A stretch of 42,850 nt of DNA from a virus. The stretch covers positions 1-42,850 of IMG/VR virus record IMGVR_UViG_3300035698_015577; one strand, 5' to 3'. Of the stretch, positions 26,505-40,900 are shown in pieces. Positions within the stretch are counted from its first letter, which is position 1, and each line of letters opens with the position of its first letter. The position numbers and the translations under genes are program-made. The notes beneath the pieces were generated by a model. That model was not told the DNA's origin. It did no database searches and was given only the letters and a program-made list of their open reading frames with translations.

Positions 26505-26723
26505 ATGAGATTAAAAGTAAAAGATAAGGTTAGAATCCTAAATAAAACATTAGGATATATGTTAGGAGAAAATAGATCATTTAAGTTAAATAAATATACT
26601 ATATATAAGATAGTTAGAATAGATTCATATGCTAACGAATGTTATTATTATTTCAAAGGTGTACCTGAATGTCATTGTTTTAAAGACAATGAATTAAAAA
26701 GAATTGGGATAGAAATATTATAA
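26505..26723 (+). CDS. VGDKV/GIDIL family protein, copy 1
   Basis: 72 aa. N-terminal LKVKDKVRILNK and C-terminal RIGIEIL define the family; a beta-rich middle fits a small SH3-like barrel. The middle is unlike other copies (ENRSFKLNKYTIYKIVR). It is the first copy after the candidate promoter and is followed 11 nt later by an unrelated gene. The barrel fold is inference from the GDKV-type start and beta pattern; no function is known. Confidence 0.7.
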   Translation: MRLKVKDKVRILNKTLGYMLGENRSFKLNKYTIYKIVRIDSYANECYYYFKGVPECHCFKDNELKRIGIEIL

Positions 26724-26734
26724 GGAATAATAAA

Positions 26735-26914
26735 ATGAAAGAAAGTATTAGAATTGTTACTTATGAAGGAAATACAGATGTCATTATTGATATATTTGAA
26801 TACAGAATGACATTTAGAAAAAATGGTGATATGGGAGCTGGTATTCAAGAAGCTGTAAAAAGAGCTATTAAAGCAGCTAATCTTGGAGATAAAGTAGAAT
26901 TATATACAGTATAA
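26735..26914 (+). CDS. Small hypothetical protein
   Basis: 59 aa, start after AAGGAATAATAAA. It is beta-then-alpha: SIRIVTYEGNTDVIIDIFEY followed by GAGIQEAVKRAIKAANLGD. The order hints at a compact two-layer domain. Not recognised. Confidence 0.6.
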   Translation: MKESIRIVTYEGNTDVIIDIFEYRMTFRKNGDMGAGIQEAVKRAIKAANLGDKVELYTV

Positions 26915-26928
26915 TATAAAGGAATAAA

Positions 26929-27045
26929 ATGATTAAATTCAATTTAGATCTATACAGAAAGATATTGATAGCTAAAGGATACAGTATCCTTTATGTTTAT
27001 ACTGCTTGTAAGCATTATGAGCAAAGATATTTAAGGAGTAATTAA
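26929..27045 (+). CDS. Very small hypothetical protein
   Basis: 38 aa after AAAGGAATAAA, MIKFNLDLYRKILIAKGYSI then YVYTACKHYEQRYL. The DNA inside contains the palindrome AAAGGATACAGTATCCTTT. Its final codons carry the AAGGAG for the next gene. Confidence 0.5.
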   Translation: MIKFNLDLYRKILIAKGYSILYVYTACKHYEQRYLRSN

Positions 27046-27046
27046 A

Positions 27047-27247
27047 ATGATTAAAAAAGAATTAGAAAATGCAAAAAAGAATATCAATTATATGTTTAAC
27101 GACAACATTAAAGGTATTCATGAGTTATTTATTGAACTCGAAAATGTTCCAATAAAATCATTTAATTCTAAAAAAAGGGAAATGAGAGATAACATAATAA
27201 GAGCACTTAAAGAAATAAACAAAAGAATACAAATACAATTAACTTAG
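27047..27247 (+). CDS. Small helical hypothetical protein
   Basis: 66 aa, Lys/Asn/Glu-rich, predicted helical hairpin (ELENAKKNINYMF, then MRDNIIRALKEINKRIQIQ). It starts 1 nt after the upstream stop and ends in TAG. Not recognised. Confidence 0.55.
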   Translation: MIKKELENAKKNINYMFNDNIKGIHELFIELENVPIKSFNSKKREMRDNIIRALKEINKRIQIQLT

Positions 27248-27263
27248 TAAAAGGATAATTAAA

Positions 27264-27611
27264 ATGGCAGCACCATACGAAAGCACTGTATATCAGAAAC
27301 AAAGAGCTAATGAAGTTAAAAGACGTACTAATGATAAAACTAAAGTCTTAATGTTTCATAACCATAGAATAGGTTATTTAACTGGTAAAACAAAAGAACA
27401 TGGTTGTAGTACATATCATTGTATTTTGTTTATCTTTACTACAGAAGATGATAAAGACTATAAAGAATTTTGGGGCTTTGATCGTAAAGCCTGGGATGTT
27501 TCATATACTGAATATTATACTTGTGCTGATTATAGTTTTGATTTAGATATGTATAAAAAGATTTTACGTAAAAAGATATTAGCAGCTAAATTGAATTATA
27601 ATATAGTTTAA
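27264..27611 (+). CDS. Hypothetical protein
   Basis: 115 aa after AAAGGATAATTAAA. It starts MAAPYESTVYQKQRANEVKR and has a beta-rich middle with CSTYHCILFIFTTE, then WGFDRKAWDVSYTEYY. The C-terminus is basic and helical. There is no zinc pattern beyond two Cys. Not recognised. Confidence 0.6.
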   Translation: MAAPYESTVYQKQRANEVKRRTNDKTKVLMFHNHRIGYLTGKTKEHGCSTYHCILFIFTTEDDKDYKEFWGFDRKAWDVSYTEYYTCADYSFDLDMYKKILRKKILAAKLNYNIV

Positions 27612-27629
27612 AAAAGGAGGATTGAAATT

Positions 27630-27803
27630 ATGCCTAATATTAAAAGAACGGAAGAAAACATTGAAAAACTTGCTAATGCTGTTATTGATACTTGGGGAAT
27701 GGATGAACTTATTCATTATGCAAGAGAACAACTTATTGATAACTATAAACTTAATTTAGATTCCTTTAATGATGATTGGGATCAAGTTATAGAAAATAAT
27801 TAA
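27630..27803 (+). CDS. Small helical hypothetical protein
   Basis: 57 aa after a strong AAAAGGAGG. Acidic and helical (IEKLANAVIDTWGMDELIHY). It is followed 9 nt later by stem-loop element B, the same gene-to-element distance as for element A. Confidence 0.6.
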   Translation: MPNIKRTEENIEKLANAVIDTWGMDELIHYAREQLIDNYKLNLDSFNDDWDQVIENN

Positions 27804-27812
27804 ACCTTTATA

Positions 27813-27857
27813 GGTACTTTTATTAGAGGAATGAAGGTACTGATAAGAGTTTAAATA
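27813..27857 (+). ncRNA. Stem-loop element B with GATAAGAGTTTAAATA tail
   Basis: GGTACTTTTATT (27813-27824) and AATGAAGGTACT (27830-27841) form 12 RNA pairs, three of them G-U, with a 5-nt loop. The tail GATAAGAGTTTAAATA follows at once. Because several pairs are G-U, the structure makes sense only as RNA. After it a GATACTTTAA tandem repeat leads to the next ribosome site. Confidence 0.75.
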
Positions 27858-27895
27858 AGATACTTTAAGATACTTTAAGATACTTAAGGAATAAG

Positions 27896-28120
27896 ATGAA
27901 ATTAAAAATAGGAGATAGAGTTAAATTATTAGGTGTTAATTCAAATGTAACTAGTTATTTAAACAATATCCATATTAATACTGGTAATTCATTTTTTGTA
28001 AATTGTATTAAGCGTGTACATGAATTTAATCAAGATGGTATAATTATTTTAGATAAAAAATACAATAAAAGATTTTTCTTTAAATGTGAATACGAAAAAG
28101 TAGGAATAGAAATACTATAA
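27896..28120 (+). CDS. VGDKV/GIDIL family protein, copy 2
   Basis: 74 aa: LKIGDRVKLLG to KVGIEIL. It belongs to a subgroup with a N-V-YL-N-I centre, then C-I--VHE and ILDKK-RFF, shared with the copies at 36701 and 36919. The start follows AAGGAATAAG and is preceded by stem-loop B. Confidence 0.75.
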   Translation: MKLKIGDRVKLLGVNSNVTSYLNNIHINTGNSFFVNCIKRVHEFNQDGIIILDKKYNKRFFFKCEYEKVGIEIL

Positions 28121-28131
28121 AGGATAATAAA

Positions 28132-28248
28132 ATGATTGATTTAATTTTATGTTTAATAGGTTTGTCTATCCTAATCATTGTTGTAGCTGTATTCTTTACA
28201 GCGGAAATTGAAGTAATTGAATACGAGGTTAAATATGAAATCAAATAG
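28132..28248 (+). CDS. Single-pass membrane peptide
   Basis: 38 aa after AAAGGATAATAAA: MIDLILCLIGLSILIIVVAV is a transmembrane helix, followed by an acidic tail. Its end overlaps the next membrane peptide. Confidence 0.55.
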   Translation: MIDLILCLIGLSILIIVVAVFFTAEIEVIEYEVKYEIK

Positions 28249-28315
28249 TATAGTTTATCTGGTAGCATCATTCTTTTGTACTGCTCTATTAACCATTCTT
28301 TTTAGTTTAATATAG
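28235..28315 (+). CDS. Tiny membrane peptide
   Basis: 26 aa, MKSNSIVYLVASFFCTALLT and a short hydrophobic end; GAGGTTAAAT precedes the ATG. It overlaps the upstream gene by 14 nt in another frame. A stop at TAG. Confidence 0.45.
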   Translation: MKSNSIVYLVASFFCTALLTILFSLI

Positions 28316-28333
28316 TACAAACTAGGAGGGAAT

Positions 28334-28502
28334 ATGAAAAAACATTATATTATATTAGCTGTACTGGCCATCATATATTTTAGAAAACAAAACACCATTA
28401 GAGAAATTATGTGATCATTTATTACGGGATTCTTCAAACCTTGGTAAACTTGTACAATATGATAAATGGGCTACAAAATTGGGTATTAAAAAGGATAAAT
28501 AA
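28334..28502 (+). pseudogene. Probable frameshifted small membrane-protein gene
   Basis: A strong AGGAGGGAAT precedes ATG at 28334, but that frame (a hydrophobic leader) stops at 28414. A different frame is open across 28363-28502 and encodes TPLEKLCDHLLRDSSNLGKL and a basic end, with no start or ribosome site of its own. The two halves together would make one protein of about 55 residues, so an indel is likely. Alternatively the 26-residue leader is a gene by itself. Confidence 0.45.
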
Positions 28503-28522
28503 ACAGAAAGGAGATATAAAAC

Positions 28523-28681
28523 ATGAAAACTTTTGTTATTGTAAATTTTATACTATATATTCTTAGTTGTATTGTTATTCCGTCAGTAAGTTATCCAAAA
28601 ACATTACAAAAACCAAATGCAGTTCGTTGGGTACTATGTGCAACAATGGCTATTTGGGCTGGTATTTTATTAATTAGATAA
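28523..28681 (+). CDS. Two-helix membrane protein
   Basis: 52 aa after AAAGGAGATATAAA. Two hydrophobic segments, FVIVNFILYILSCIVIP and VRWVLCATMAIWAGILLI, flank a short polar loop (SYPKTLQKPNA). The hairpin topology and size are those of small phage holin-like proteins, but no lysis enzyme is adjacent, so the role is open. Confidence 0.6.
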   Translation: MKTFVIVNFILYILSCIVIPSVSYPKTLQKPNAVRWVLCATMAIWAGILLIR

Positions 28682-28754
28682 TATAATATAATATAATATG
28701 TTAAATACATAGAAAGGAGGTATCATGCATAATTAAACGATTTAAAATTTTATA

Positions 28755-28799
28755 GACGCTTTTACTTCAATAGTAAAGGCGTTGATAAGAATTTAAACA
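28755..28799 (+). ncRNA. Stem-loop element C with GATAAGAATTTAAACA tail
   Basis: GACGCTTTTACT (28755-28766) and AGTAAAGGCGTT (28772-28783) form 12 pairs with two G-U and a 5-nt loop (TCAAT). The tail GATAAGAATTTAAACA follows at 28784-28799. Just upstream, AAAGGAGG leads to the three-codon frame ATG CAT AAT TAA (28725-28736). Confidence 0.75.
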
Positions 28800-28820
28800 A
28801 ATTTGAAAGGATAACAAATA

Positions 28821-28979
28821 ATGATAGTTGAAGTATGGAAAGTAACAAATAAACAAACAAAAGAAGTTTATATGATTCCATGTACTATAAAACAATGGCA
28901 AAAACGAATTGGTGATCTTGATAATAGAATATATAATATAGTTCTTCATAAAAGAGAAAATAATGAAAAAAGAACTTAA
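28821..28979 (+). CDS. Small hypothetical protein
   Basis: 52 aa after GAAAGGATAACAAATA: beta start (IVEVWKVTNKQTKEVYMIP), then a short helix and basic end. It overlaps the following family copy by 17 nt. It follows stem-loop C directly. Confidence 0.55.
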   Translation: MIVEVWKVTNKQTKEVYMIPCTIKQWQKRIGDLDNRIYNIVLHKRENNEKRT

Positions 28980-29187
28980 AATAGGGAATAGAGTTAAAAT
29001 TATTGATCCCGATTGTACTTATTTTAAATTTCCGGAACGTAATAATATTTATAATTTACATGATATAGATAAAATAATAAATATAGATCTTGATCATGGT
29101 AGAGGAATTTACTATGTTTTAGAAAAAGATCCAAATTATTATTTCTGTAAAAAAGATCTCAGAAGAATAGGAATAAATATATTATGA
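28963..29187 (+). CDS. VGDKV/GIDIL family protein, copy 3
   Basis: 74 aa: LKIGNRVKIIDPDC to RIGINIL (Asn instead of Asp/Glu in the C-terminal motif). It is the first of three copies joined by ATGA overlaps. Its start lies inside the previous gene. Confidence 0.75.
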   Translation: MKKELKIGNRVKIIDPDCTYFKFPERNNIYNLHDIDKIINIDLDHGRGIYYVLEKDPNYYFCKKDLRRIGINIL

Positions 29188-29381
29188 AAAAACTAAAAGA
29201 ATTAAAGAAATTAAGAGTAAATGATAAGGTAAAAGTATTAAGTCCAGGTTATTATGTAAGTAATAAAATTTGTAAAATAATAGAAATTCATAGTGGTGGT
29301 GAGCATTATAGAGTAGAAGGTGATAATTCTACTTTTTTTGGAAGAAATAATCTTAAAAAAGCAGGAATAGATATATTATGA
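29184..29381 (+). CDS. VGDKV/GIDIL family protein, copy 4
   Basis: 65 aa: KLRVNDKVKVLSPGYY to KAGIDIL, with a shorter middle than most. ATGA overlap with both neighbours, so translation is probably coupled; the GGAATA before its ATG is the coding sequence of copy 3's C-terminus. Confidence 0.8.
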   Translation: MKKLKELKKLRVNDKVKVLSPGYYVSNKICKIIEIHSGGEHYRVEGDNSTFFGRNNLKKAGIDIL

Positions 29382-29593
29382 AAGAGTTAAAAGTAGGTGA
29401 TAAGGTTAAAATACTAAGTAAAAGTATAGGTATTCCTTTAATAAGTATAGAATTAGATATTACTAAAACATATAAAATTACAGAAATTACTCACATATGG
29501 AATGGTACTGAATATCGGTTAGGTAATAGTGCATATGAAGAATATTATTTTTATAGAAAAGATCTTATAAAAGTAGGAATAGATATACTATAA
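29378..29593 (+). CDS. VGDKV/GIDIL family protein, copy 5
   Basis: 71 aa: LKVGDKVKILSKSIGIP to KVGIDIL, the typical full-length form with TYKITEI and YRL in the middle strands. Last of the first chain; a 25-nt gap with its own AAAAGGAG follows. Confidence 0.8.
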   Translation: MKELKVGDKVKILSKSIGIPLISIELDITKTYKITEITHIWNGTEYRLGNSAYEEYYFYRKDLIKVGIDIL

Positions 29594-29618
29594 TTGTTAA
29601 AATAAAAGGAGTTAAATA

Positions 29619-29864
29619 ATGTCATATCTTCATAGATACAAAAGATCTGTTGTTAAAAGACAAACAAATGAAATTATAAATGAATCAAATACTGCTGATA
29701 CCTCAGAACCGGATAATCTTTTAAATCTAACAGAATATGAGTTGAATTGTATTGATTTATTATATGCTGAAGATGATATTAAAGATGATTATGATTTTTA
29801 TTATGAAGATGAATTTGATTATTATGATTATCATGATGATTTAGATTGTTATTGGTTATTATAA
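29619..29864 (+). CDS. Very acidic small protein
   Basis: 81 aa after AAAAGGAGTTAAATA. The N-terminal 20 residues are basic (LHRYKRSVVKRQ); the last 35 are almost all Asp, Glu, Tyr and Phe (EDDIKDDYDFYYEDEFDYYD). Such charge patterns occur in DNA-mimic anti-restriction or anti-repressor proteins, which is a possibility only. Not related to the array family. Confidence 0.65.
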   Translation: MSYLHRYKRSVVKRQTNEIINESNTADTSEPDNLLNLTEYELNCIDLLYAEDDIKDDYDFYYEDEFDYYDYHDDLDCYWLL

Positions 29865-29876
29865 ATAGAGGTTGAA

Positions 29877-30062
29877 ATGAATAACGTTATACAATTAAGT
29901 GATTATAATGAAAAGAAAATGAATTCTATTAAAGAAGATTGTAAAATTAGAGTTCATTATGTTGAAAAACTTAAAGAAAATTGTGATTTTTATATAAATG
30001 GTTTAATAGATAGAAAAGATTTAATACATAGTATTAAAAACACCTTAACTCATGTGATATAA
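29877..30062 (+). CDS. Small helical hypothetical protein
   Basis: 61 aa starting MNNVIQLSDYNEKKMNSIKE, then a helix with HYVEKLKENCDFYINGLIDR. The start follows AGAGGTTGAA. Not recognised. Confidence 0.55.
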   Translation: MNNVIQLSDYNEKKMNSIKEDCKIRVHYVEKLKENCDFYINGLIDRKDLIHSIKNTLTHVI

Positions 30063-30073
30063 GGAGTAAGATT

Positions 30074-30256
30074 ATGTTCAAGTATTTAATATGGGTAATA
30101 TTTCAAAGAAATTGTTTTTAGGGTCACGATTGGAGTAAATGGGAAAGAAAACAAGAAAAATGGCTTTATGTTAACACAAAAGATGAATATGTTAAAACAG
30201 TTCAAACAAAAAAATGTAAAAAATGTGGATATGTTAAAAGAGAAAGAATTAAATAA
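30074..30256 (+). pseudogene. Small zinc-ribbon gene with an in-frame amber codon
   Basis: AAGGAGTAAGATT precedes ATG at 30074. The frame runs 15 codons to TAG (30119-30121), then stays open in the same frame to TAA at 30256. The second part reads GHDWSKWERKQEKWLYV and ends with CKKCGYVKRERI. The whole resembles a common phage small protein in which a short hydrophobic start leads into GHDW and one CxxC pair. TAG ends other genes here, so this is probably a nonsense mutation or a readthrough case. Confidence 0.5.
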
Positions 30257-30290
30257 GTAATATATAAACCACATAAAAAGGAGAAAGAAG

Positions 30291-30419
30291 ATGAAAATGA
30301 AATCAAAAAAACACCAATGTCCAGGGAAAATGGTATTAATTGAAAAAACTGAAAAAGCACATGAGTGTCAATGTAACAAATGTGGTTATAGGGAAACCAA
30401 GTATCAAAAAACCAATTAA
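30291..30419 (+). CDS. Small zinc-ribbon peptide
   Basis: 42 aa after AAAAAGGAGAAAGAAG: HQCPGKM in the first part, then HECQCNKCGYRET. Three or four Cys in the order C, C-x-C-x2-C suggest one zinc ion. It is next to another CGY-type ribbon, so the two may be related. Confidence 0.6.
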   Translation: MKMKSKKHQCPGKMVLIEKTEKAHECQCNKCGYRETKYQKTN

Positions 30420-30494
30420 TCAATTAAATAACCAATTAATTAAATATTATAGTTTGTTATAATAAACTACCAAAAAGGTGAAAGGAGAGAAATC

Positions 30495-30614
30495 ATGACA
30501 AATTCATTTGACAAAGCAGTAATTGGTGTGGCTATCGCTTATATTCTTTTATGGATAGCTGGTGTTCTTGGCGTTATTTACGTTGCTTGGCACTTTATAA
30601 GCAAATATTGGTAA
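30495..30614 (+). CDS. Single-pass membrane peptide
   Basis: 39 aa after AAAGGAGAGAAATC; residues 8-34 are strongly hydrophobic (AVIGVAIAYILLWIAGVLGV). No charged domain on either side. After it, 30615-30803 has no credible gene; it contains the palindrome GCCTTAAGGC near 30707. Confidence 0.55.
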   Translation: MTNSFDKAVIGVAIAYILLWIAGVLGVIYVAWHFISKYW

Positions 30615-30803
30615 AATGGTCAATAAAAGCTACTGAGGTGGTGAAAGGAGAAAAATTATATGCTTGTACTGAATAGATAAACATAAATTAAAACGCCTTA
30701 AGGCAAAAAATTAACTATAATCTGAATCAGCCGGGATAAAAGCCATGAATAGAATAAGAGATCAGAATAAATAAAAATTGATGTATTATGTTTAAGTTTC
30801 TAT

Positions 30804-30857
30804 ATTGTCTATATTCTCTGCGGAGTAACAATGTAGACAATAATAAGAATTTAAATA
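30804..30857 (+). ncRNA. Stem-loop element D with AATAAGAATTTAAATA tail
   Basis: ATTGTCTATATT (30804-30815) and AATGTAGACAAT (30830-30841) form 12 pairs with one G-U. The 14-nt loop holds a nested CTC-TGCG-GAG stem. The tail AATAAGAATTTAAATA follows at 30842-30857. It precedes array copy 6. Confidence 0.75.
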
Positions 30858-30883
30858 ACATAAATAGTAAAAGGAAAGTTAAT

Positions 30884-31105
30884 ATGAGATTTAAAATTGG
30901 AAATAAAGTAAGAATATTAAGTAAAAATGCAGGTATTCCTTTTCAAGCAGCACTTAATGAAGGACGTATAAATAAATATACAGTATATGAAATAACAAAT
31001 ATAACAACTACTATAGTTGGAGCCAGATATTATTTTGATTACAGTGAAGTATTTTATATTTTCTTAGATACTGATCTTAAAAAAGTAGGGATAGAAATAT
31101 TATGA
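30884..31105 (+). CDS. VGDKV/GIDIL family protein, copy 6
   Basis: 73 aa from the ATG at 30884 (AAAAGGAAAGTTAAT); the open frame extends upstream through the stem-loop but has no ribosome site. FKIGNKVRILSKNAGIP to KVGIEIL. ATGA overlap with the small gene that follows. Confidence 0.75.
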   Translation: MRFKIGNKVRILSKNAGIPFQAALNEGRINKYTVYEITNITTTIVGARYYFDYSEVFYIFLDTDLKKVGIEIL

Positions 31106-31456: not shown

Positions 31457-31472
31457 AAGGAATAGAAATATT

Positions 31473-31595
31473 ATGAAAAAGAAAAAAATAGAACACTGGT
31501 GTGAGAAATGTAAATTTAAAATAATACGCACTATTTATTATAGCTTTAATACAGTAAAATGTCCAGTATGTGGACACGATAATAAAGTAAATTAG
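31473..31595 (+). CDS. Small zinc-ribbon peptide
   Basis: 40 aa: WCEKC at 9-13 and CPVCGHDN at 30-37, a compact rubredoxin-knuckle type ribbon. The ribosome site is the relic GGAATAGAAATATT, identical to the 3' end of family genes although no family gene precedes it. Confidence 0.65.
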   Translation: MKKKKIEHWCEKCKFKIIRTIYYSFNTVKCPVCGHDNKVN

Positions 31596-31613
31596 GATAT
31601 AATAAGGTAAGTA

Positions 31614-31817
31614 ATGAGAGAATTAAAAATAGGAGATAAAGTAAAAATATTAAGTAAAGTTTACGGAGAATCAATAGAAGATTCAGGATATAAAATAGGA
31701 GATAGAGATATTATAAGATCTATATCTGGTTGGACTGCTTGGTATGGTTTATCTAAAAATCCTATGTTTATATTTCTTAAAGAAGATCTTCAAAAAATAG
31801 GGATAGAGATATTATAA
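31614..31817 (+). CDS. VGDKV/GIDIL family protein, copy 7
   Basis: 67 aa: LKIGDKVKILSKVYGES to KIGIEIL, with a second IGDRDIIRSI strand. A GGTAAGTA ribosome site precedes it. Followed by a 15-bp tandem repeat, not by another copy. Confidence 0.75.
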   Translation: MRELKIGDKVKILSKVYGESIEDSGYKIGDRDIIRSISGWTAWYGLSKNPMFIFLKEDLQKIGIEIL

Positions 31818-32001: not shown

Positions 32002-32223
32002 ATGAAAAAAGAATTAAAAATTGGTGATAAGGTAAAAATATTAAGTAAAAGAACAGGGTTTCAATTAAATGAAACTGAGTACAGGTTATATGAAATAGAT
32101 AGAATAAAATCTATTTATAGTTATTGTCATGATAACTCTGAACCTCGTTATATGTTAGAAAAAAATCCTAGGTGGTTATTTCTTACAAATGATTTACAAA
32201 AAATAGGAATAGATATATTATGA
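32002..32223 (+). CDS. VGDKV/GIDIL family protein, copy 8
   Basis: 73 aa from the ATG at 32002; an upstream in-frame ATG at 31963 adds a segment without a ribosome site. LKIGDKVKILSKRTGFQ to KIGIDIL. GGAATATTGGGAAATATT before the ATG looks like a degraded family 3' end. First of a three-copy chain. Confidence 0.75.
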   Translation: MKKELKIGDKVKILSKRTGFQLNETEYRLYEIDRIKSIYSYCHDNSEPRYMLEKNPRWLFLTNDLQKIGIDIL

Positions 32224-32444
32224 AAACTATAAAAGATTTAAGAGTAAATGATAAAGTTAAAATATTAGGTAAAAGTATAGGAGATCCTATTGAATATTGG
32301 TCACATAATATAGGAGATATATGCAAAATAACTTGTATATTTAATAGCAGTAGTTATGGTAATATTACTACTTATGAATTAGATCATCGTCCTGGAGATT
32401 TTTTAAATACTGATCTTAGAAAAACAGGGATAGATATATTATGA
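32220..32444 (+). CDS. VGDKV/GIDIL family protein, copy 9
   Basis: 74 aa: LRVNDKVKILGKSIGDP to KTGIDIL. ATGA overlaps at both ends. The middle has NIGDICKITCIF, the commonest form of the second conserved strand. Confidence 0.8.
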   Translation: MKTIKDLRVNDKVKILGKSIGDPIEYWSHNIGDICKITCIFNSSSYGNITTYELDHRPGDFLNTDLRKTGIDIL

Positions 32445-32662
32445 GAGATATAAGAAAATTAAAAGTAGGAGATAAGGTAAAAATATTAGATAGTAAATAT
32501 TTTAACGGGATTGGTAGAATAGGTAAACCTTATAATATAGGTGATGTAGATAAAATAATAAGAATATTCAAAATAAACAATAAAAGAGTAATTTTTTTAT
32601 CAAAAGGACAAGTAGGATTTTTTGAAAACGAACTTAAAAAAGCAGGAATAGAAATATTATAA
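32441..32662 (+). CDS. VGDKV/GIDIL family protein, copy 10
   Basis: 73 aa: LKVGDKVKILDSKYF to KAGIEIL, with NIGDVDKIIRIF inside. End of the chain; the next gene has its own AAAGGAG. Confidence 0.8.
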   Translation: MRDIRKLKVGDKVKILDSKYFNGIGRIGKPYNIGDVDKIIRIFKINNKRVIFLSKGQVGFFENELKKAGIEIL

Positions 32663-32822: not shown

Positions 32823-32823
32823 A

Positions 32824-33632: not shown

Positions 33633-33893
33633 GTGGGATACATAATAGAAAAAAATATTCCTTTACCAAATAAAGAAAAAAGTACAGGAAGAAAACCTAA
33701 ATATCCATTTCGTAAAATGGAAATAAATAATTCTTTTTATGTTTCTTTAAAAGGTAAAAATAAAGAAAAAATGATTTCTACTATAAGCGGATCAGCTAGA
33801 AAAACAAGAATGAATGGAAAACAATTTACTATAAGACAAGTAAAGGATGAAAACAAAATAGTTATAGGATTACGTTGTTGGAGGATAAAATGA
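33633..33893 (+). CDS. Conserved-type small phage protein (KYPFRKMEINNSFYV motif)
   Basis: 86 aa starting at GTG after AAGGATAATATA. The layout of IIEKNIPLP, then KYPFRKMEINNSFYV, then a helix, KQFTIRQV and RCWRIK is one I recognise from small uncharacterised phage proteins. The basic second half (SARKTRMNGKQF) may bind nucleic acid. Its TGA overlaps the ATG of the next array copy. Confidence 0.65.
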   Translation: MGYIIEKNIPLPNKEKSTGRKPKYPFRKMEINNSFYVSLKGKNKEKMISTISGSARKTRMNGKQFTIRQVKDENKIVIGLRCWRIK

Positions 33894-34102
33894 AAGAATT
33901 AAAAAAATTAAAAGTAGGTGACAAGGTTAGAATATTAAGTAAAAGTGTAGGAGAACCTGGTTTATATGGTATAGAATACTTTGGCCATAAATTACACAGT
34001 AAAGCTATAATAACAGCCGTATATTCAGAATATTTTTTAGATTATAAATCCGGTGCTTTCGCTAGACAGGATCTTAGAAAAATAGGAATAGATATATTAT
34101 GA
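33890..34102 (+). CDS. VGDKV/GIDIL family protein, copy 11
   Basis: 70 aa from the ATG at 33890 with GGAGGATAAA upstream, inside the previous gene's end. LKVGDKVRILSKSVGEPG to KIGIDIL. It belongs to the subgroup with FGHKLHSKAIIT, shared with the copy at 40231. Confidence 0.8.
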   Translation: MKELKKLKVGDKVRILSKSVGEPGLYGIEYFGHKLHSKAIITAVYSEYFLDYKSGAFARQDLRKIGIDIL

Positions 34103-34332
34103 AAACTATAAGAGAATTAAAAGTAGGTGATAAAGTAAAAATATTAGGTAAAAGTATAGGATTATATGGTGACACAGAACAAGAAAGTTTATCTTTTTTT
34201 AAATACAATATTGGGGATATTCATAAAATAACTGAAATACTTTGTTGTTCTTCTCTTTGTTATCTACTAGATGATAGAAAAGGAGGATTTACTAAACAAG
34301 ACCTTCAAAGAATAGGAATAGAAATATTATGA
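34099..34332 (+). CDS. VGDKV/GIDIL family protein, copy 12
   Basis: 77 aa: LKVGDKVKILGKSIGLYG to RIGIEIL. Subgroup with an extra TEQESL segment and LLDDRKGGF, close to the copy at 37146. ATGA overlaps at both ends. Confidence 0.8.
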   Translation: MKTIRELKVGDKVKILGKSIGLYGDTEQESLSFFKYNIGDIHKITEILCCSSLCYLLDDRKGGFTKQDLQRIGIEIL

Positions 34333-34775
34333 AAAAGAAATGTAATAAATCAGAATTGTATGATAAACTGTATAAAGAAGCTGAAAATCTAATGAATGAA
34401 TATAATCCATGTAGTATTAAAAATAATACATGTAAAAGAGGTCAAATATATAAAAATGAAGATATAGTTAGTATGGCTTATTTTGGAGAAAAGAATTTCT
34501 GTTGTAGAAATTGTAAGTATTTAATTAATGGTACCTGTAACACAAAATGTTTATTGTGTAAATTATGGATATGTGAAGAAATAATGCATTTATTACCAGC
34601 TATATTTCATATTAAAATATGGAGAATAGTAATTGAAGCAAAAGAACATGGTTTATTATATGCAAGAGGTAGTAAAAAAGATGCATTAAATCAAAATAAT
34701 AGTATATCTGGATATTTTTGGGGATTACGTTTTAAGAATGGAATTGTAAATGCTAGAGCAAAAAAACAAATATGA
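34329..34775 (+). CDS. Cys-rich zinc protein
   Basis: 148 aa. About nine Cys in residues 28-82: C28, C35, then CCRNC, CNTKCLLCKLWIC. Two zinc sites are likely. The C-terminal half is basic with SGYFWGLRFKNG. It is coupled by ATGA to copy 12 and to the next tiny gene, so it is translated as part of the array chain. Function unknown. Confidence 0.65.
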   Translation: MKKKCNKSELYDKLYKEAENLMNEYNPCSIKNNTCKRGQIYKNEDIVSMAYFGEKNFCCRNCKYLINGTCNTKCLLCKLWICEEIMHLLPAIFHIKIWRIVIEAKEHGLLYARGSKKDALNQNNSISGYFWGLRFKNGIVNARAKKQI

Positions 34776-34894: not shown

Positions 34895-35086
34895 ATGAGA
34901 AAATTATATATAAATGAAAGAGTTAAAGTATTAAAAAAAAGTATAGGTATAAATATATCAGATACACTTCATAATAAAAATGATATTTGTAAAGTAACTA
35001 AAATACATGAAACTTTAATAAGATATTATTATTGTTTAGATAATAAATATGGTTATTTTCTTAGAATAGATCTTGAATTAATATAA
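34895..35086 (+). CDS. VGDKV/GIDIL family protein, copy 13 (divergent, C-terminal motif lost)
   Basis: 63 aa: LYINERVKVLKKSIGI at the start and LRIDLELI at the end, so the GIDIL tail is missing. No clear ribosome site precedes it. It is probably a decaying copy, or one freed from the coupling constraint because no gene follows directly. Confidence 0.6.
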   Translation: MRKLYINERVKVLKKSIGINISDTLHNKNDICKVTKIHETLIRYYYCLDNKYGYFLRIDLELI

Positions 35087-35116: not shown

Positions 35117-35260
35117 ATGATTATCAAAAAATGTACATGTATTCATAAGTATCAAGACAAAAGATATGGTAAAGGTATGCGTGTTTTTAATGAATTAGAA
35201 AGAAAACAAGGAGTACCTCAAGAATATAGATGTACTGTTTGTGAAAAAGTTAGACAATAA
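35117..35260 (+). CDS. Small zinc-ribbon protein
   Basis: 47 aa after AAAAAGGAGAAATAAA: CTCIHKYQDKRYGKGMRV, later YRCTVCEKV. This C-x-C-x-H start with a distant CxxC and the QDKRYGKG core is a form I recognise in many phage genomes. One zinc site; function not known. Confidence 0.7.
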   Translation: MIIKKCTCIHKYQDKRYGKGMRVFNELERKQGVPQEYRCTVCEKVRQ

Positions 35261-35791: not shown

Positions 35792-35804
35792 AAAGGAGAT
35801 AATT

Positions 35805-36431
35805 ATGCGTGATTTTAAAAAAGGTGACAGAGTTAAAATATTGAGAAAATCAACAGGAAAATTATTATCAGATGTAGAATCTACGTCTGTAAGAAGAGGT
35901 AATATCCTTAAAATTGATTATATTCATAAAGAAAGTGGTAGTTTAGTTGTCGGATTTGTAGGTGCTTCTGGTAATTATTATTTTAATAAAAGAGATTTTG
36001 AATTAATAGTAGGTAAAAACTACGTTATTAATAAAGATATATCTTTATTGTCTGTAGGAATAGCTGGTGATAGTGAGTGTTCTACTTTTAGGAATGAATA
36101 TACTAAACTTTGTAATCTTTTACAACATAATAAATTAACTGGAACTGTATTTAAAAAAGGATTAAATTTACAAGATACATGTTTATATGAATGGATCTTA
36201 ACTACTGAAAAAAGACTTAATTGGTTTATAAAAAAAGGTCTCATTATAGAGAAAGAAAAAGAAATAAAATGCATATGGTGTGATAGTAAATGTAGTATAA
36301 AAGCAATTTCTATAAATAGTATAGGTTATGTTTATATTAATTGTAATGATTCAGATTGTAATGCTAAAGGTCCACGTTATTATTCTAATGCTGTAAAAAA
36401 TTGTATAAAAGGTTGGGAAGACAAACGATAA
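35805..36431 (+). CDS. Fusion of a VGDKV-family domain to a Lar-like zinc ribbon (copy 14)
   Basis: 208 aa from the ATG at 35805 (AAAAGGAGATAATT). Residues 1-70 are the family domain (FKKGDRVKILRKSTGKLL to YYFNKRDFELIVG) without the GIDIL tail. Residues 75-150 are an unassigned helical part, and 154-208 a zinc ribbon with C156, C159, C180, C185, NAKGPRY and W204, the order of Lar-type proteins. Lar in lambdoid phages relieves host type I restriction; whether this one does is unknown. It is the only copy with an added domain. Confidence 0.7.
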   Translation: MRDFKKGDRVKILRKSTGKLLSDVESTSVRRGNILKIDYIHKESGSLVVGFVGASGNYYFNKRDFELIVGKNYVINKDISLLSVGIAGDSECSTFRNEYTKLCNLLQHNKLTGTVFKKGLNLQDTCLYEWILTTEKRLNWFIKKGLIIEKEKEIKCIWCDSKCSIKAISINSIGYVYINCNDSDCNAKGPRYYSNAVKNCIKGWEDKR

Positions 36432-36469
36432 AATGAGGTAAATTAAGGAATAAATCAGGGAGTAAATTA

Positions 36470-36679
36470 ATGAAAACTATTAAAGATTATATTTTATTAA
36501 TAAGTGTTATGTGTATTATAGCTTTATTAATCTATACAAATATAAATATAACTTCTACTAATGAAATATTATTAATGATGGTATCCAGAAAGTTTATAAT
36601 ACTAATGTTTATTATACTTGTACCATACAACCTGGAGGCAATGCCTTTGTGTATGATAATATTGATAATATTTTATTAA
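36470..36679 (+). CDS. Two-helix membrane protein
   Basis: 69 aa after CAGGGAGTAAATTA. Hydrophobic segments at about 8-24 (LLISVMCIIALLIYTNI) and 45-69 (FIILMFIILVPYNLEAMPLC and following). The N-terminus MKTIKDYI looks like the start of array copies (MKTIKDLR), which may reflect recombination at a shared 5' end. Confidence 0.5.
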   Translation: MKTIKDYILLISVMCIIALLIYTNINITSTNEILLMMVSRKFIILMFIILVPYNLEAMPLCMIILIIFY

Positions 36680-36700
36680 AATGGTAAAGGTAAGAAAATT

Positions 36701-36922
36701 ATGAAAGAATTAAAAGTAGGAGATAGAGTTAAGATATTAGGTAATAATCCACATGTAATTAAATATTTAAAAAATATTCTTGACGATTCACTTAAAGTGG
36801 GGTGTATTATTTGTATATCTCATCTTTACCATAGTGGGGATATAATAGTTTTAGATAAAAAAGGAACTGAAAGATTTTTTTATAAAAGTGAATTTAAAAA
36901 AGTAGGGATAGAAATATTATGA
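36701..36922 (+). CDS. VGDKV/GIDIL family protein, copy 15
   Basis: 73 aa: LKVGDRVKILGNNPHV to KVGIEIL. Subgroup with the copies at 27896 and 36919 (V--YL-NI, C-I, ILDKK). First of a chain of four linked copies, the last lacking ATG. Confidence 0.8.
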   Translation: MKELKVGDRVKILGNNPHVIKYLKNILDDSLKVGCIICISHLYHSGDIIVLDKKGTERFFYKSEFKKVGIEIL

Positions 36923-37149
36923 GAAAACAAAGAAAATTAAAAGTCGGTGATAGAGTTAAAATATTAAATGTTAACCGATTTGTAGTTAATTTTTTAGAAA
37001 GTATTCCTGACCCTTCATTCCACATAAATTGTATTAAACATGTACACGAAATTAGAGAAAATGGTGATATAACAATTTTAGACAAAATAAAATGTAAACG
37101 CACTTTTTATACAAATGAGTTTAAAAAAGTAGGGATAGACATATTATGA
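36919..37149 (+). CDS. VGDKV/GIDIL family protein, copy 16
   Basis: 76 aa: LKVGDRVKILNVNRFV to KVGIDIL. ATGA overlaps at both ends. Closest to its upstream neighbour, so the pair is probably a local duplication. Confidence 0.8.
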   Translation: MRKQRKLKVGDRVKILNVNRFVVNFLESIPDPSFHINCIKHVHEIRENGDITILDKIKCKRTFYTNEFKKVGIDIL

Positions 37150-37364
37150 GGGAATTAAAAGTAGGTGATAAGGTTAAAATATTAGGTAAAAGTGTAGGAT
37201 TAAACGAAGATACAGAAGAAGAGAGTTTAAAAAGATTTGGTTACTGTATTGGAGAAATTCATACAATAACATTTATAACTTTATTTCCTTCGTATTTATT
37301 AGATGATAAATCTGGAGGATTTCATAAAAATGACTTACAGAAGAGAAGAATAGATATATTATAA
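37146..37364 (+). CDS. VGDKV/GIDIL family protein, copy 17
   Basis: 72 aa: LKVGDKVKILGKSVGLNED to KRRIDIL (Gly of the tail replaced by Arg). The TEEESL and LLDDKSGGF segments group it with copy 12. Its stop is TAA rather than TGA, the result of the same base that removes the next copy's ATG. Confidence 0.75.
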   Translation: MRELKVGDKVKILGKSVGLNEDTEEESLKRFGYCIGEIHTITFITLFPSYLLDDKSGGFHKNDLQKRRIDIL

Positions 37365-37561
37365 AAAGTATTAGAGAACTAAAAATAGGGGATAAAATAA
37401 AGATATTTAATGGAAATATAAGATATACTATAATTAATATTAAAAGTAAAATAAAAGTAAATAATAATACTACATATAGTTTGTATTATTTTAAAAATAA
37501 AATTAATCCTTATTGTCTTACAGAAAAAGATATTGAAAGGGTGGGGATAGATATACTATAA
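37361..37561 (+). pseudogene. VGDKV/GIDIL family copy 18 with ATG changed to ATA
   Basis: At the usual ATGA junction the sequence is ATAA, so the copy would begin with ATA (37361-37363). The frame is otherwise intact for 66 codons: KSIRELKIGDKIKIFNGN, through KDIERVGIDIL, to TAA, which overlaps the ATG of the next gene. No other in-frame start is near the 5' end. It is a start-loss pseudogene, unless ATA initiates by coupling. The open frame suggests recent loss or continued use. Confidence 0.7.
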
Positions 37562-38013
37562 TGATAAATACAAAAGCTTTATTAATATGGTTCGGTAAAA
37601 ATGGGTACGCTATGTATACAAGTAATTTTTATGATGAAAGTATTTATGAATCACATTATATTAGATCCAGTTTAGCTTTATTTGAAAGTAATCTTTACTA
37701 TAATAGTGAACCATTAATTAGAAGTTGTTTTTTTAATAAATGTCCTGTACTAGATAAAAGAGATGCTGTACAAAAAGATAAATCTCTTGTATTTAGATCT
37801 CCAATATATTCTCCTGAATTGTATAATGATGAAATAGAAGTACAAAAAGGTAAAAATTTAGATTTTTTTAAAATAGCATTAGATAAAAATTATAATAAAT
37901 CTACTAAAGCTCCTGTATATTTAGTAAGTTTACAAAAATATATATTATGGTGGTTAAAAAGAGGTGCAAAATTTGGTAAAATAAAATATGGTATTATTAA
38001 TTGGTTTAAGTAA
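37561..38013 (+). CDS. Hypothetical protein
   Basis: 150 aa, Tyr/Phe/Lys-rich, not recognised. MINTKALLIWFGKNGYAMYT at the start, a middle with SCFFNKCPVLDKRDA and a basic hydrophobic C-terminus (LQKYILWWLKRGAKFG). Its start overlaps the stop of the ATA-start copy by 1 nt, so its own translation depends on the GGGGATAGATATACTATA junction. Confidence 0.6.
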   Translation: MINTKALLIWFGKNGYAMYTSNFYDESIYESHYIRSSLALFESNLYYNSEPLIRSCFFNKCPVLDKRDAVQKDKSLVFRSPIYSPELYNDEIEVQKGKNLDFFKIALDKNYNKSTKAPVYLVSLQKYILWWLKRGAKFGKIKYGIINWFK

Positions 38014-38066
38014 GTTTAAATAAAAGAAAAATAAATTATAAATAAAAGAAAAATAAGGAGATTATT

Positions 38067-38486
38067 ATGGATTTAACAATTACAAATTTATTAAATGCAA
38101 CTGGAACTTGTAAAGATGCTCAATTAGAATTAATTGAATTCTGTAAACATCCTAATATTATTAAATTTAAAAATAATGATATAATACCTGAAGCTGTATT
38201 TAAAAAAGTAATAGAAACAAATAAAAAGTGGAAAGATTGGTGTAAAAGAAATAATTTACCTATAATTGAATTAACTTCTATGGAAATTACAAAAATGTTA
38301 AAAAAAGATCCTACTTCTTGCCCTGTCTGTAATAAAAGTAGTGGTAATTTAGAAGCAGAAGGTGAAATAAATTTTAATAAAGTAAATAAAATGATACAGA
38401 TAAATGTGTGTTGTTATCATTGTAATGCTTTATTTGAAATTGACTTAAAAGTAAATACATTAGTATGTACACATTGGCAAAGATAA
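38067..38486 (+). CDS. Zinc-ribbon hypothetical protein
   Basis: 139 aa after AAGGAGATTATT. Helical N-terminal two thirds (FCKHPNIIKFKNNDI, then VIETNKKWKDWCKRNN), then a ribbon with CPVC and CYHC about 30 residues apart near the C-terminus. Nucleic-acid binding is possible. Not recognised further. Confidence 0.6.
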   Translation: MDLTITNLLNATGTCKDAQLELIEFCKHPNIIKFKNNDIIPEAVFKKVIETNKKWKDWCKRNNLPIIELTSMEITKMLKKDPTSCPVCNKSSGNLEAEGEINFNKVNKMIQINVCCYHCNALFEIDLKVNTLVCTHWQR

Positions 38487-38496
38487 GGAGATTATT

Positions 38497-38667
38497 ATGG
38501 ATAGTTTTGGAAAATTTGTTACTGCTAAACTTAAAAATAAAAATGATTGTAGGCAAGGTTGGGTAATTTGTGAACACCCATTATATATTAAAGGAATGTC
38601 TGGTACTATTTATGAATGCGAAGGTACGCCAACAATTGTTATAAATTCACCTAAAATGGATGAATAA
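38497..38667 (+). CDS. Small hypothetical protein
   Basis: 56 aa after ATAAGGAGATTATT, a site near-identical to that of the upstream gene. Beta-rich, with Cys in NDCRQGWVICEHPLY and YECEG. May hold one metal ion. Not recognised. Confidence 0.6.
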   Translation: MDSFGKFVTAKLKNKNDCRQGWVICEHPLYIKGMSGTIYECEGTPTIVINSPKMDE

Positions 38668-38682
38668 AAAAATAAGGAAATT

Positions 38683-38883
38683 ATGAAAACTATGAAAAAA
38701 TTAAAGGTAGGTGATAAGGTAAAAATAATAAATAATCCTTTTCCTAATAATTTTGAAAATGGAGAAATACATAAAGTAATTGATATACAAAAAAATGAAT
38801 CAAATGAACCTAATATTTTTTTAAAGCCAGGTTGGATTTTTTATAAAAATGAAGTTAAACGAATAGGAATAGATATCTTATAA
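38683..38883 (+). CDS. VGDKV/GIDIL family protein, copy 19
   Basis: 66 aa: LKVGDKVKIINNPFPN to RIGIDIL, shorter in the middle. It stands alone; the tail codons GGAATAGATATC are kept although no gene follows at once. The 88 nt before the ATP-grasp gene holds no credible ORF. Confidence 0.75.
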   Translation: MKTMKKLKVGDKVKIINNPFPNNFENGEIHKVIDIQKNESNEPNIFLKPGWIFYKNEVKRIGIDIL

Positions 38884-38971
38884 AGATATTAATGAAGTTA
38901 TGGAAAATCAAAAAGATTTAGTAACAGTAATAAATAAATTAAAACCTATTATAACCATAAAGGGGTAAGTT

Positions 38972-39823
38972 ATGTCAAAATTAGCATTAATTATTGATAA
39001 TCTGGAAACATTTGAAGCTAGAAGACTTCATGAAGAAAGCAGTAATGTATTTGATGAAGTAAAACTTGTCAACAACTTTAGTGATATTTTTATAACTTTA
39101 GAAATAGAACAACATGCTAAAATATATTTAGAAGGTACTGAACTAAATAATATAGATGTATCTTTATTTAAAAGTACAAAACATAATAGAGTTGCTAAAT
39201 CTGTATTAGCTCATGTATTATATAATAATAATGTAAATATAGTAGACCCCATAGAAAGATTTTCAATAGGATTTTCATCTAAAATCTTATCAACTATAGA
39301 AAGACATAAGAATAACTGTACAATAGATTCTTATTTCTCTTTCTCCCACCGATCAACAGAAGCATTAAGCAGATATTTAATCGAAGATACTAAATTATTT
39401 ATTAAACCTATAAATGGTTCACAAAGTAGAGGAATAGTTACAATTAATACCTTAAATGAACTTTTAGAATACTCCAGATCTTTCTCTTATAGAAGTAATC
39501 AAGGAAACATACCACTATTTATACAAAAATTTATAGAAATAGATGTAGAATATAGAATGTTTGTTGTAAACAATAAAGTTATTGCTAGTATTAAAAAAAT
39601 AAGAAGAAATGATGGTTCTATTTCATATAGAAGAATGAGATTTGCCAGATTAGCAGAATTTGTAATCAATCATGTATCAGAAAAAGGTGTATTAGGTGTA
39701 GATGCATGTAAAGATATAAATGGTAATTTTTATATAATTGAAGCAAATAGAAGTCCTATGTTTAAAGCTTTAGAACGAAAAACTGGAATGAACATAGCTT
39801 TAGAAATATTAAGGAATTCATAA
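38972..39823 (+). CDS. RimK-like ATP-grasp ligase
   Basis: 283 aa after AAAGGGGTAAGTT. Residues 1-110 form the N-terminal pre-ATP-grasp part. ATP-grasp signatures follow: LFIKP with K145, a glycine loop GSQSRG at 149-154, hinge LFIQKFIE 182-189, VEYRMFV with R195, LGVDAC with D244, and FYIIEANRSP with E257 and N259 for Mg-ATP. This order fits RimK/glutathione-synthase-like carboxylate-amine ligases, which join an amino acid or amine to a carboxyl group, often on a protein. The substrate here is unknown. It is flanked on both sides by array copies. Confidence 0.8.
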   Translation: MSKLALIIDNLETFEARRLHEESSNVFDEVKLVNNFSDIFITLEIEQHAKIYLEGTELNNIDVSLFKSTKHNRVAKSVLAHVLYNNNVNIVDPIERFSIGFSSKILSTIERHKNNCTIDSYFSFSHRSTEALSRYLIEDTKLFIKPINGSQSRGIVTINTLNELLEYSRSFSYRSNQGNIPLFIQKFIEIDVEYRMFVVNNKVIASIKKIRRNDGSISYRRMRFARLAEFVINHVSEKGVLGVDACKDINGNFYIIEANRSPMFKALERKTGMNIALEILRNS

Positions 39824-39833
39824 AAGGAATAAT

Positions 39834-40025
39834 ATGAAATTAAAAATTGGTGATCAAGTAAGAATAATACGTACAAATATATTTGGCAATAAAGGACTCC
39901 CTATTGGCACAAAAGGTATTGTTTATAGAATTAATCGTTGTAATGAAAATATTATTTATATTAATAATCATAGTCACCCATACATAATAGAAAACCTTAG
40001 AAAAATAGGAATAGAAATAATATGA
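39834..40025 (+). CDS. VGDKV/GIDIL family protein, copy 20
   Basis: 63 aa: LKIGDQVRIIRTNIFG to KIGIEII (final Ile not Leu). The middle GTKGIVYRINR is closest to a classic KOW/SH3 pattern. First of five copies in a row after the ATP-grasp gene. Confidence 0.8.
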   Translation: MKLKIGDQVRIIRTNIFGNKGLPIGTKGIVYRINRCNENIIYINNHSHPYIIENLRKIGIEII

Positions 40026-40234
40026 AATTAAAAATTGGTGATAAAGTAAAAATATTAAATAAAACTCCAGGACACCCTATTCATAATTCTCCACATAATG
40101 TAGGAGATAAATGTGCAATAACTGCTTTTAGACCAATAGGATATAATGGAGAAAGAAATGTTTATTTATTAGATAATGAATATTTTTATTTTTATAAATA
40201 TGATTTAAGAAAAACAGGAATAGATATATTATGA
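40022..40234 (+). CDS. VGDKV/GIDIL family protein, copy 21
   Basis: 70 aa: LKIGDKVKILNKTPGHP to KTGIDIL, with NVGDKCAITAF inside. ATGA overlaps on both sides. Confidence 0.8.
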   Translation: MKLKIGDKVKILNKTPGHPIHNSPHNVGDKCAITAFRPIGYNGERNVYLLDNEYFYFYKYDLRKTGIDIL

Positions 40235-40476
40235 GGGAATTAAAAGAATTAAAAGTAGGAGATAAGGTTAAAATATTAGGTAAAAGTGTAGCATTATGTG
40301 GGCGTACAGGATTAGAAAGTTTAGAAAGATTTGGGCATGAACTTCATAGTAAAGTTACAATAACTTCTATGTGTAATCTCTATGATGATAGTAATACTAT
40401 TGATTATTTTTTAGATAATAAATCTGGATGTTTCCATAGACGAAATCTTAAAAAAACAGGGATAGAGATATGGTAG
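40231..40476 (+). CDS. VGDKV/GIDIL family protein, copy 22
   Basis: 81 aa, the longest simple copy: LKVGDKVKILGKSVALCG to KTGIEIW. The last residue is Trp and the stop TAG, because the junction is ATATGGTAG rather than ATATTATGA, giving a 7-nt overlap with the next copy. Confidence 0.8.
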   Translation: MRELKELKVGDKVKILGKSVALCGRTGLESLERFGHELHSKVTITSMCNLYDDSNTIDYFLDNKSGCFHRRNLKKTGIEIW

Positions 40477-40691
40477 AAGGATTAAAAGTAGGAGATAAAG
40501 TAAAAATATTAAGTAAAAGTGCAGGTATACCTATTTCTGATATTAGTTATAATGTAAAAATAGGAGATAGACGTATAATAACAAATATAACAACATTTCT
40601 TGATTGTAGTCGTCCTTATTATCGTTTAAATAACGAACATGGAATATTTCATAGACAGGATCTTAAAAAAATAGGAATAGATATATTATGA
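40470..40691 (+). CDS. VGDKV/GIDIL family protein, copy 23
   Basis: 73 aa: LKVGDKVKILSKSAGIP to KIGIDIL, with KIGDRRIITNI inside. Its start MVEGLK differs from other copies because of the altered upstream junction. Confidence 0.8.
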   Translation: MVEGLKVGDKVKILSKSAGIPISDISYNVKIGDRRIITNITTFLDCSRPYYRLNNEHGIFHRQDLKKIGIDIL

Positions 40692-40900
40692 AAGAATTGA
40701 AAAAAGATGATAAAGTTAGAATTTTAAGTAAAAGTACACCAGGATATATTAGGAATACTACACATTGTGTAGGAGATATAGGAATAGTAGATTATACTCC
40801 TAAGTCACACGATTGGTATGGTATAAAAGTTTGTGGTAAAAGTGATAGATATACTTATAAAAGAAAAGACCTTCAAAAACTAGGAATAGAAATAATATAA
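40688..40900 (+). CDS. VGDKV/GIDIL family protein, copy 24
   Basis: 70 aa: LKKDDKVRILSKSTPGY to KLGIEII, with CVGDIGIVDYTPKSH inside. Last copy in the window. ATGA overlap upstream; a separate AAGGAGGA follows for the next gene. Confidence 0.8.
   Translation: MKELKKDDKVRILSKSTPGYIRNTTHCVGDIGIVDYTPKSHDWYGIKVCGKSDRYTYKRKDLQKLGIEII

Follow-up and report, generated by a model that had tools for sequence, protein, structure and literature searches.

An array of 24 SH3-like genes in an uncultured phage: a candidate set of translationally coupled cassettes of one binding scaffold

Here we describe an array of 24 divergent copies of one small SH3-like protein in the rightward operon of an uncultured phage, IMG/VR virus record IMGVR_UViG_3300035698_015577; the window analysed is the whole record of 42,850 bases. 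With a probability of roughly one half, we read the array as a set of recombining, translationally coupled cassettes of a single binding scaffold, diversified at its surface. The parts of this reading differ in strength: the account of the conserved ends and of the cassette structure, drawn from the sequence, is likely to be right, and binding of many targets against the host is a possibility to which we give somewhat less than even odds.

The composition of the array given in an earlier note on this DNA is reproduced by a family profile search of the record, which returns exactly 24 matches (E values 6.5e-16 to 1.5e-26), at the same places and with none further: 22 stand-alone ATG-start genes, an ATA-start copy at 37361-37561 and a fusion at 35805-36431. 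The copies, SH3-like barrel cassettes of 63-81 amino acids (aa), are in most cases 25-50% identical to the reference copies. A tail GI(D/E/N)I(L/I/W), or once RIDIL, ends 22 of the 24, in agreement with the GI(D/E)IL-type end previously ascribed to nearly all of them; copy 34895 and the fusion 35805 lack it. Also as noted earlier, the copies occur singly and in chains of two to five (28963-29593, 32002-32662, 33890-34332, 36701-37561 and 39834-40900), with zinc-ribbon-like and membrane peptides interspersed among them. Eleven of the 12 copy-to-copy junctions are exact 4-nt overlaps (ATGA, or ATAA at the ATA-start copy), the remaining one being an overlap of 7 nt. The copies placed at 30788 and 31963 by the open reading frame (ORF) caller probably have their true starts at 30884 and 32002. 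The members are as follows.

26505-26723, plus strand: copy 1, tail GIEIL, stop codon TAA
27896-28120, plus strand: copy 2, in a subgroup with 36701 and 36919, TAA
28963-29187, plus strand: copy 3, opens a chain of three
29184-29381, plus strand: copy 4, ATGA overlap with copy 3
29378-29593, plus strand: copy 5, ATGA overlap with copy 4, TAA
30884-31105, plus strand: copy 6, its tail holding the ATG of a 36-aa ORF at 31102
31614-31817, plus strand: copy 7, top match to the family profile, TAA
32002-32223, plus strand: copy 8, opens a chain of three
32220-32444, plus strand: copy 9, ATGA overlap
32441-32662, plus strand: copy 10, ATGA overlap, TAA
33890-34102, plus strand: copy 11, pairs with 40231
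34099-34332, plus strand: copy 12, pairs with 37146, its tail holding the ATG of a 148-aa gene at 34329
34895-35086, plus strand: copy 13, without the GIEIL tail
35805-36431, plus strand: copy 14, the fusion, in which a cysteine-rich C-terminal part follows the SH3-like N-terminus
36701-36922, plus strand: copy 15, opens a chain of four
36919-37149, plus strand: copy 16, ATGA overlap, structure predicted
37146-37364, plus strand: copy 17, ATGA overlap, decayed tail RRIDIL, TAA
37361-37561, plus strand: copy 18, ATA in place of the start codon, longest branch of the tree
38683-38883, plus strand: copy 19, single, TAA
39834-40025, plus strand: copy 20, opens a chain of five
40022-40234, plus strand: copy 21, ATGA overlap, structure predicted
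40231-40476, plus strand: copy 22, ATGA overlap, variant tail GIEIW
40470-40691, plus strand: copy 23, overlaps copy 22 by 7 nt
40688-40900, plus strand: copy 24, ATGA overlap, TAA

The C-terminal part of the fusion copy has no Pfam match, and a suspicion by eye that it is a Lar-type restriction-alleviation domain was dropped.

The DNA that encodes the tail is an 18-nt junction element, AGGRATAGAWATATTATG, made up of a Shine-Dalgarno (SD)-like AGGR core, a short spacer and ATGA, its final ATG being the start codon of the next gene and overlapping the TGA stop of the preceding copy. A typical element, a free-standing one and a gene outside the family that is started by a copy are located as follows.

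29363-29380, plus strand: typical junction element AGGAATAGATATATTATG, comprising the last codons of copy 4, the SD-like core and the ATG of copy 5
31458-31475, plus strand: free-standing junction element AGGAATAGAAATATTATG, outside the family frames, whose ATG at 31473 starts a 40-aa zinc-ribbon gene
34329-34775, plus strand: 148-aa gene rich in cysteine, whose start lies in the tail of copy 12, with homologues in phages G019-G022, which are related to one another

With up to two mismatches the element is present at 21 places in the window against 0.07 expected, and 12 stop-start junctions combine ATGA with AGGR 10-11 nt upstream, an arrangement for which translational coupling is predicted. 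Codon usage carries the same signal. The fraction of identical codons at the tail is 0.789 against 0.509 expected (z = 7.8), compared with z values of 2.4 for the N-terminal block, 0.1 for the five residues preceding the tail and 5.0 for the middle; the last value indicates that shared descent adds some codon identity, much less per site than is found at the tail. The proportion of synonymous differences (pS) is 0.29 in the tail versus 0.46-0.47 in the N-terminal block and middle. The two tail isoleucines are encoded by ATA in 22 of 22 and 21 of 22 copies (ATA accounts for 52% of isoleucine codons), and the residue preceding GI is variable (I, V, T, A, L or R), its codon ending in A in 20 of 22 cases and so giving AGGR. 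The element at 31458-31475 comes after the stop of an 84-aa ORF and lies in no family gene, and the homologues, in other phages, of the gene that copy 12 starts have matching starts. Codon agreement, low pS and the out-of-frame element together argue that the tail is conserved mainly as nucleotides, and GI(D/E)IL would in large part be the translation start of whatever gene comes next. The earlier suggestion that conserved ends around a divergent middle point to selection for diversity is therefore not borne out by that pattern itself, since the C-terminal end is conserved mainly at the nucleotide level. The N-terminal block, LKVGDKVKIL, behaves as the first strand of the predicted barrel, conserved as protein: its proportion of nonsynonymous differences (pN) is 0.135 at a pS of 0.47, equal to that of the middle.

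Another explanation of the tail is that it serves primarily as a docking peptide: through GI(D/E)IL every copy would attach to a single hub, such as a sliding clamp or another phage-specific protein, while the barrels reach different partners, and the overlap with a ribosome-binding site (RBS) would be secondary. This proposal draws on phages G019-G022, where the tail of the SH3-like copies, QLLFxFM or QLMLFEL, is written in varied synonymous codons, has no SD sequence and matches the bacterial sliding-clamp-binding consensus QL[S/D]LF / QxxLF (PMC12309361), so that it looks, from its sequence, like a docking peptide acting at the protein level. These phages also encode a protein of about 525 aa with an end of this type, and the tail E(I/L/V)xxFxF of another phage, G029, is likewise without SD. 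In phage T4, proteins such as gp33 and gp55 of late transcription carry interchangeable C-terminal clamp-binding epitopes (PMC2988020). Retention of the peptide by the chain-end copies of the window also fits. The window tail itself does not meet the clamp-binding consensus, the peptide is absent from other window proteins, codon conservation within the gene is highest at the tail, and the 18 nt of the tail recur out of frame before another gene; docking as the primary role of the window tail is thus doubtful. Two simpler candidates were rejected on the same grounds, namely a docking peptide alone, weakened by the element at 31458, and an ordinary conserved strand, weakened by the codon test.

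The bodies of the copies are predicted to share one fold. Run on 23 copies, AlphaFold2 models copy 21 with confidence as an SH3-like barrel (pLDDT, the predicted local distance difference test, 92), with strands E8-11, E30-39, E45-50, E56-58 and E62-64, and copy 16, a member of a distant subgroup, with its strands in the same order and the first loop holding a helix (pLDDT 77). The models have the five short strands and the RT-loop after strand 1 that characterize SH3-like barrels; both distant subgroups are thus predicted to be SH3-like, differing folds were not seen, and the single family proposed earlier holds. In Foldseek searches the copy 21 model lies near PetP, SH3 domains and nitrile hydratase beta, the copy 16 model near FeoA, SH3 domains and YorP, and against BFVD the copy 21 model finds many small phage proteins at template modelling (TM) scores of 0.6-0.7. 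The probabilities reach 0.99-1.00, yet E values do not fall below 0.001, as expected for barrels of this size, and the matches are therefore a fold assignment and not family membership.

Searches of Pfam, NCBIfam and PADLOC gave no family match above the curated cut-off or consistent across copies; PHROG 10201 (65 aa, function unknown) is matched by 11 of the 24 copies at E <= 0.1, weakly, with a best value of 0.00076. A weak profile resemblance to ribosomal protein L24, to NusG (E = 0.014) and to a PHROG annotated as DNA-binding (E = 0.011), together with the small size and lysine-rich composition of the copies, would suit KOW/SH3-like regulators that bind nucleic acid, the ribosome or polymerase, with every copy adapted to its own RNA, promoter or complex. 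All of these matches are near chance, and the fold matches in PDB point equally to protein-protein SH3 domains and to nucleic-acid binders; we regard such a regulatory role as unlikely.

The earlier description of the middles as strongly varying applies to surface residues and loop lengths, and does not extend to the core residues, which are kept. In strands 2-5 (numbering of copy 21) positions 30, 33, 36, 48, 50, 57, 62 and 64 have entropies of 0.7-1.7 bits, and the intervening positions 31, 32, 34, 35, 37, 38, 47, 49, 56, 58 and 63 have 2.1-3.7 bits. With inward and outward positions read from strand alternation, not from computed side-chain burial, the middle is a putative preserved core under a hypervariable surface; insertions and deletions cluster at three loops, after residue 19, around 40-45 and at 52. 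Such a pattern is expected of a scaffold selected for its fold, with a surface free or selected to change, and the contrast between a kept core and varying outward residues and loops favours functional diversification.

The same data bear on a neutral or dosage expansion, in which short direct repeats drive duplication and the middles, weakly constrained, drift without the copies taking on separate tasks. The short ends are indeed repeated, the middle pN/pS is near 1 in the closest pairs (about 0.7-1.2, at a pS of about 0.46), copy 18 is decayed, and another array-bearing phage, G023, contains an empty cassette. Reading frames are nevertheless open in all 24 copies, although at the base composition of the window random codons are stops at a rate of 10.6% and 70 of them stay open with a chance of 0.0004; moreover, variation is concentrated at the surface and spares the core, similar sets persist across several phage lineages, and phage genomes are compact. 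We judge purely neutral growth of the array to be quite improbable.

Repeated duplication and dispersal, proposed in the earlier note together with three subgroups recurring at distant sites, are supported by the tree and by repeats at the junctions. The tree recovers 27896 with 36701 and 36919, 34099 with 37146, and 33890 with 40231 (bootstrap 93-94; Shimodaira-Hasegawa-like approximate likelihood ratio test, SH-aLRT, 87-98). The other forks are mostly unresolved and the branches long (median 1.1 changes per site), which argues for an old or fast-evolving family and not for a burst of recent duplicates. Stretches of 20-34 bp are shared across gene junctions of the array, and copy 18, on the longest branch, sits behind a decayed element in which AGGA has become AAGA and ATG has become ATA. 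Variable middles between conserved ends and cassette-like junctions might also be produced by a diversity-generating system, such as a retroelement or a site-specific cassette integron, that actively varies the middles. The copies show deep gapped divergence of about one change per site, not targeted recent mutation, there is no template-type repeat among them, and no reverse transcriptase or integrase was recognised in the genes examined, which were part of the window ORFs and were not searched systematically for integrases; an active system of this kind is very improbable.

The cassette model that we prefer would work as follows. The end of one cassette would supply the start of the next gene, whether a further copy or a gene from outside the family, at 34329 (148 aa) or 31473 (zinc ribbon), and coupled translation would spare a new cassette the need for a promoter. 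Homologous recombination between the short conserved ends would multiply and reshuffle the copies, adding, deleting and moving cassettes. The barrel would act as a binding scaffold and, through changes in its surfaces and loops, would have come to bind different partners; the likeliest are host proteins encountered at an early stage of infection, among them targets of defence or takeover. The rightward operon would then be a repertoire of related binders, not one function at high dose, and a role in host takeover or counter-defence is what we infer for it.

Similar sets exist in other IMG/VR phages, each with 2-17 SH3-like copies and one phage-specific tail. A degenerate DNA pattern for the N-terminal block was the sole route that uncovered them. 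Protein homologue searches of the window family found nothing in IMG/VR or in species-representative genomes, and comparison with annotated phages gave one chance-level match for the window family and none for the copies of G022 and G023; DNA similarity to known phages was confined to matches spanning 6-12% of the query, and the 18-nt element pattern retrieved from IMG/VR seven scattered single matches, judged to be chance. The window set, G023 and G019-G022 are linked by profile-profile comparison with probabilities of 96.5-97.7%, mainly over the N-terminal half; for G023 and G019-G022 against the window set the values are 96.5-96.9%.

G023 (IMGVR_UViG_3300033064_001798) has at least 17 copies (17-20), many in ATGA chains, with the tail WxxI(C/T)I encoded by TGGGAGGATATNNNTATATGA and ending in ATATGA at 12 of 12 junctions that have an overlapping ATG. 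The same tail is found on three non-SH3 genes, and in the empty cassette (L120:5406-5438) a start is joined to the tail without a body, giving the ORF MKNKWRDITI*. In G030 about seven copies, and two or three other genes with unrelated bodies, carry the tail FKGN(I)K, whose DNA (TTCAAAGGAAACATCAAATGA or TTCAAAGGAAA..AAATGA) encodes SD plus ATGA. The principle of the window is thus repeated with different peptides in both phages, which argues for the RBS reading of the tail. The related phages G019-G022 (30-49 ORFs in common at 51-66% identity) have 6, 9, 7 and 8 copies with few clear orthologues, in keeping with the earlier expectation that copy number would not be constant among relatives. 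Two copies with different bodies in G022 are identical over 59 of 60 bp from the tail into the downstream spacer, which is direct evidence of tail movement. G029 has eight tandem copies, and G031 and G032 have smaller SH3-like sets.

How far these phages are unrelated was compared among the window, G019-G023 and G026. G019-G022 have no structural genes in common with the window phage, and G023 shows no more than a 74-residue terminase match. Two cysteine-rich genes lying between the copies, 35117-35260 and 34329-34775, have homologues in array-bearing phages that are otherwise almost wholly different from the window phage (61% identity in G023; 27-37% in G019-G022), a hint of a common accessory gene pool. 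More tentatively than for the window alone, we suggest that several unrelated phage lineages may each have built an exchangeable repertoire of SH3-like mini-binders, with a phage-specific tail that is an overlapping RBS or a clamp-docking peptide.

Several observations weigh against our reading of the window array. About ten chain-end copies (TAA, no overlapping gene) still keep the junction element, so that something besides RBS service helps to maintain it, perhaps shared descent, gene conversion or a function of the peptide. The distance of 10-11 nt between the SD-like core and the ATG is longer than for most neighbouring genes of the operon. Synonymous sites are near saturation, for which reason positive or diversifying selection is not demonstrable and dN/dS was rejected as proof of it. 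Models of defence systems gave one match to the 24 copies, at a chance level (E = 0.017), and none of them is similar to a known protein of defence or anti-defence. The nearest capsid relatives examined for the window phage show no copies, their early regions being mostly missing.

One such relative, G001 (IMGVR_UViG_3300014911_000028; capsid 61% identical), carries in its early arm (L037:4709-11908) about 15 divergent tandem paralogues of a different family of about 100 aa with the motif ..KMMGYDxVxI... In leave-one-out comparisons 15 of the 17 ORFs tested beat 300 shuffles and every other ORF, several of them narrowly, and five members are certain at E < 1e-3; the member count is approximate because the ORFs were first chosen by eye. 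A (T/K)YDYVKSxxExxGYxLLSxxY family, which by eye resembles HNH endonucleases, has 6-10 members scattered among the structural genes of the capsid relatives G006, G007 and G011, and two members in the window.

The window as a whole (GC content about 0.28 record-wide) has a leftward structural arm, with a portal (PHROG 145), a large terminase (PHROG 38) and a capsid-like protein, and the rightward arm of small genes, which runs from near the 25-kb position to the end. The 1043-aa large terminase (12608-15739, minus strand) looks intein-interrupted (splice-like FNAK/CARYD...VANNILSHN/SS), and relative L017, aligned to it across 1013 residues, seems to share the interruption. A Thr/Gly-rich fibre-like ORF (1-2079, minus strand; GC 0.42-0.49) continues past the contig end. 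Within the small-gene operon, 38972-39823 encodes a RimK-like ATP-grasp protein (Pfam RimK, E = 1.4e-9). A full-length CCA-adding tRNA nucleotidyltransferase with phage homologues of at most 35% identity is encoded at 41169-42494. An ERF-type recombinase suspected by eye at 25505 was unsupported by library searches.

The early regions of phages are rich in small genes of unassigned role; here 24 of them in one genome belong to one scaffold, and functional screens become tractable because one assay design serves many copies. Conserved C-terminal peptides of phage mini-proteins can be overlapping ribosome-binding sites, as in the window, G023 and G030, with G019-G022 forming a separate class whose shared tail resembles a clamp-docking peptide. 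If the repertoires of several lineages are real, they would be the phage counterpart of a binder library in one early operon, and should the barrels turn out to target distinct host or defence proteins, each array would in effect be a prepared catalogue of phage inhibitors.

Viruses in general are known to have multigene families of small early proteins. The claim that no described phage system is built this way stands for protein family libraries, annotated phages and open-licence papers, none of which describe such arrays, and falls for other uncultured phages, where similar sets occur. The sets of G019-G022, G023, G029 and G030 resemble that of the window in their N-terminal block and size, in having a variable middle and in carrying one tail throughout a phage, with similar ATGA chains in G023, but the tail differs in each lineage. 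PetP, FeoA, YorP, SH3 domains and the BFVD phage proteins are alike in predicted fold and size; their sequence relation is near chance, whereas the window has 24 divergent copies per genome. For PHROG 10201 the matches are mostly weak, several covering chiefly the N-terminal half, and no array is known for it here. T4 gp33 and gp55, with different bodies and a shared C-terminal docking peptide, are analogous to the QLLF lineage only, the window tail not being a clamp-binding motif. Integron cassettes are defined by an integrase and hairpin attC sites; the junction element of the window is 18 nt long. In archaeal viruses, early anti-defence genes are linked by a regulatory sequence (PMC11065993), which resembles the window in placing many different early genes under one expression signal; there the signal is a promoter and the genes are anti-defence genes, and in the window it is an overlapping translation start. 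What is new here is the coupled-cassette build combined with phage-specific tails.

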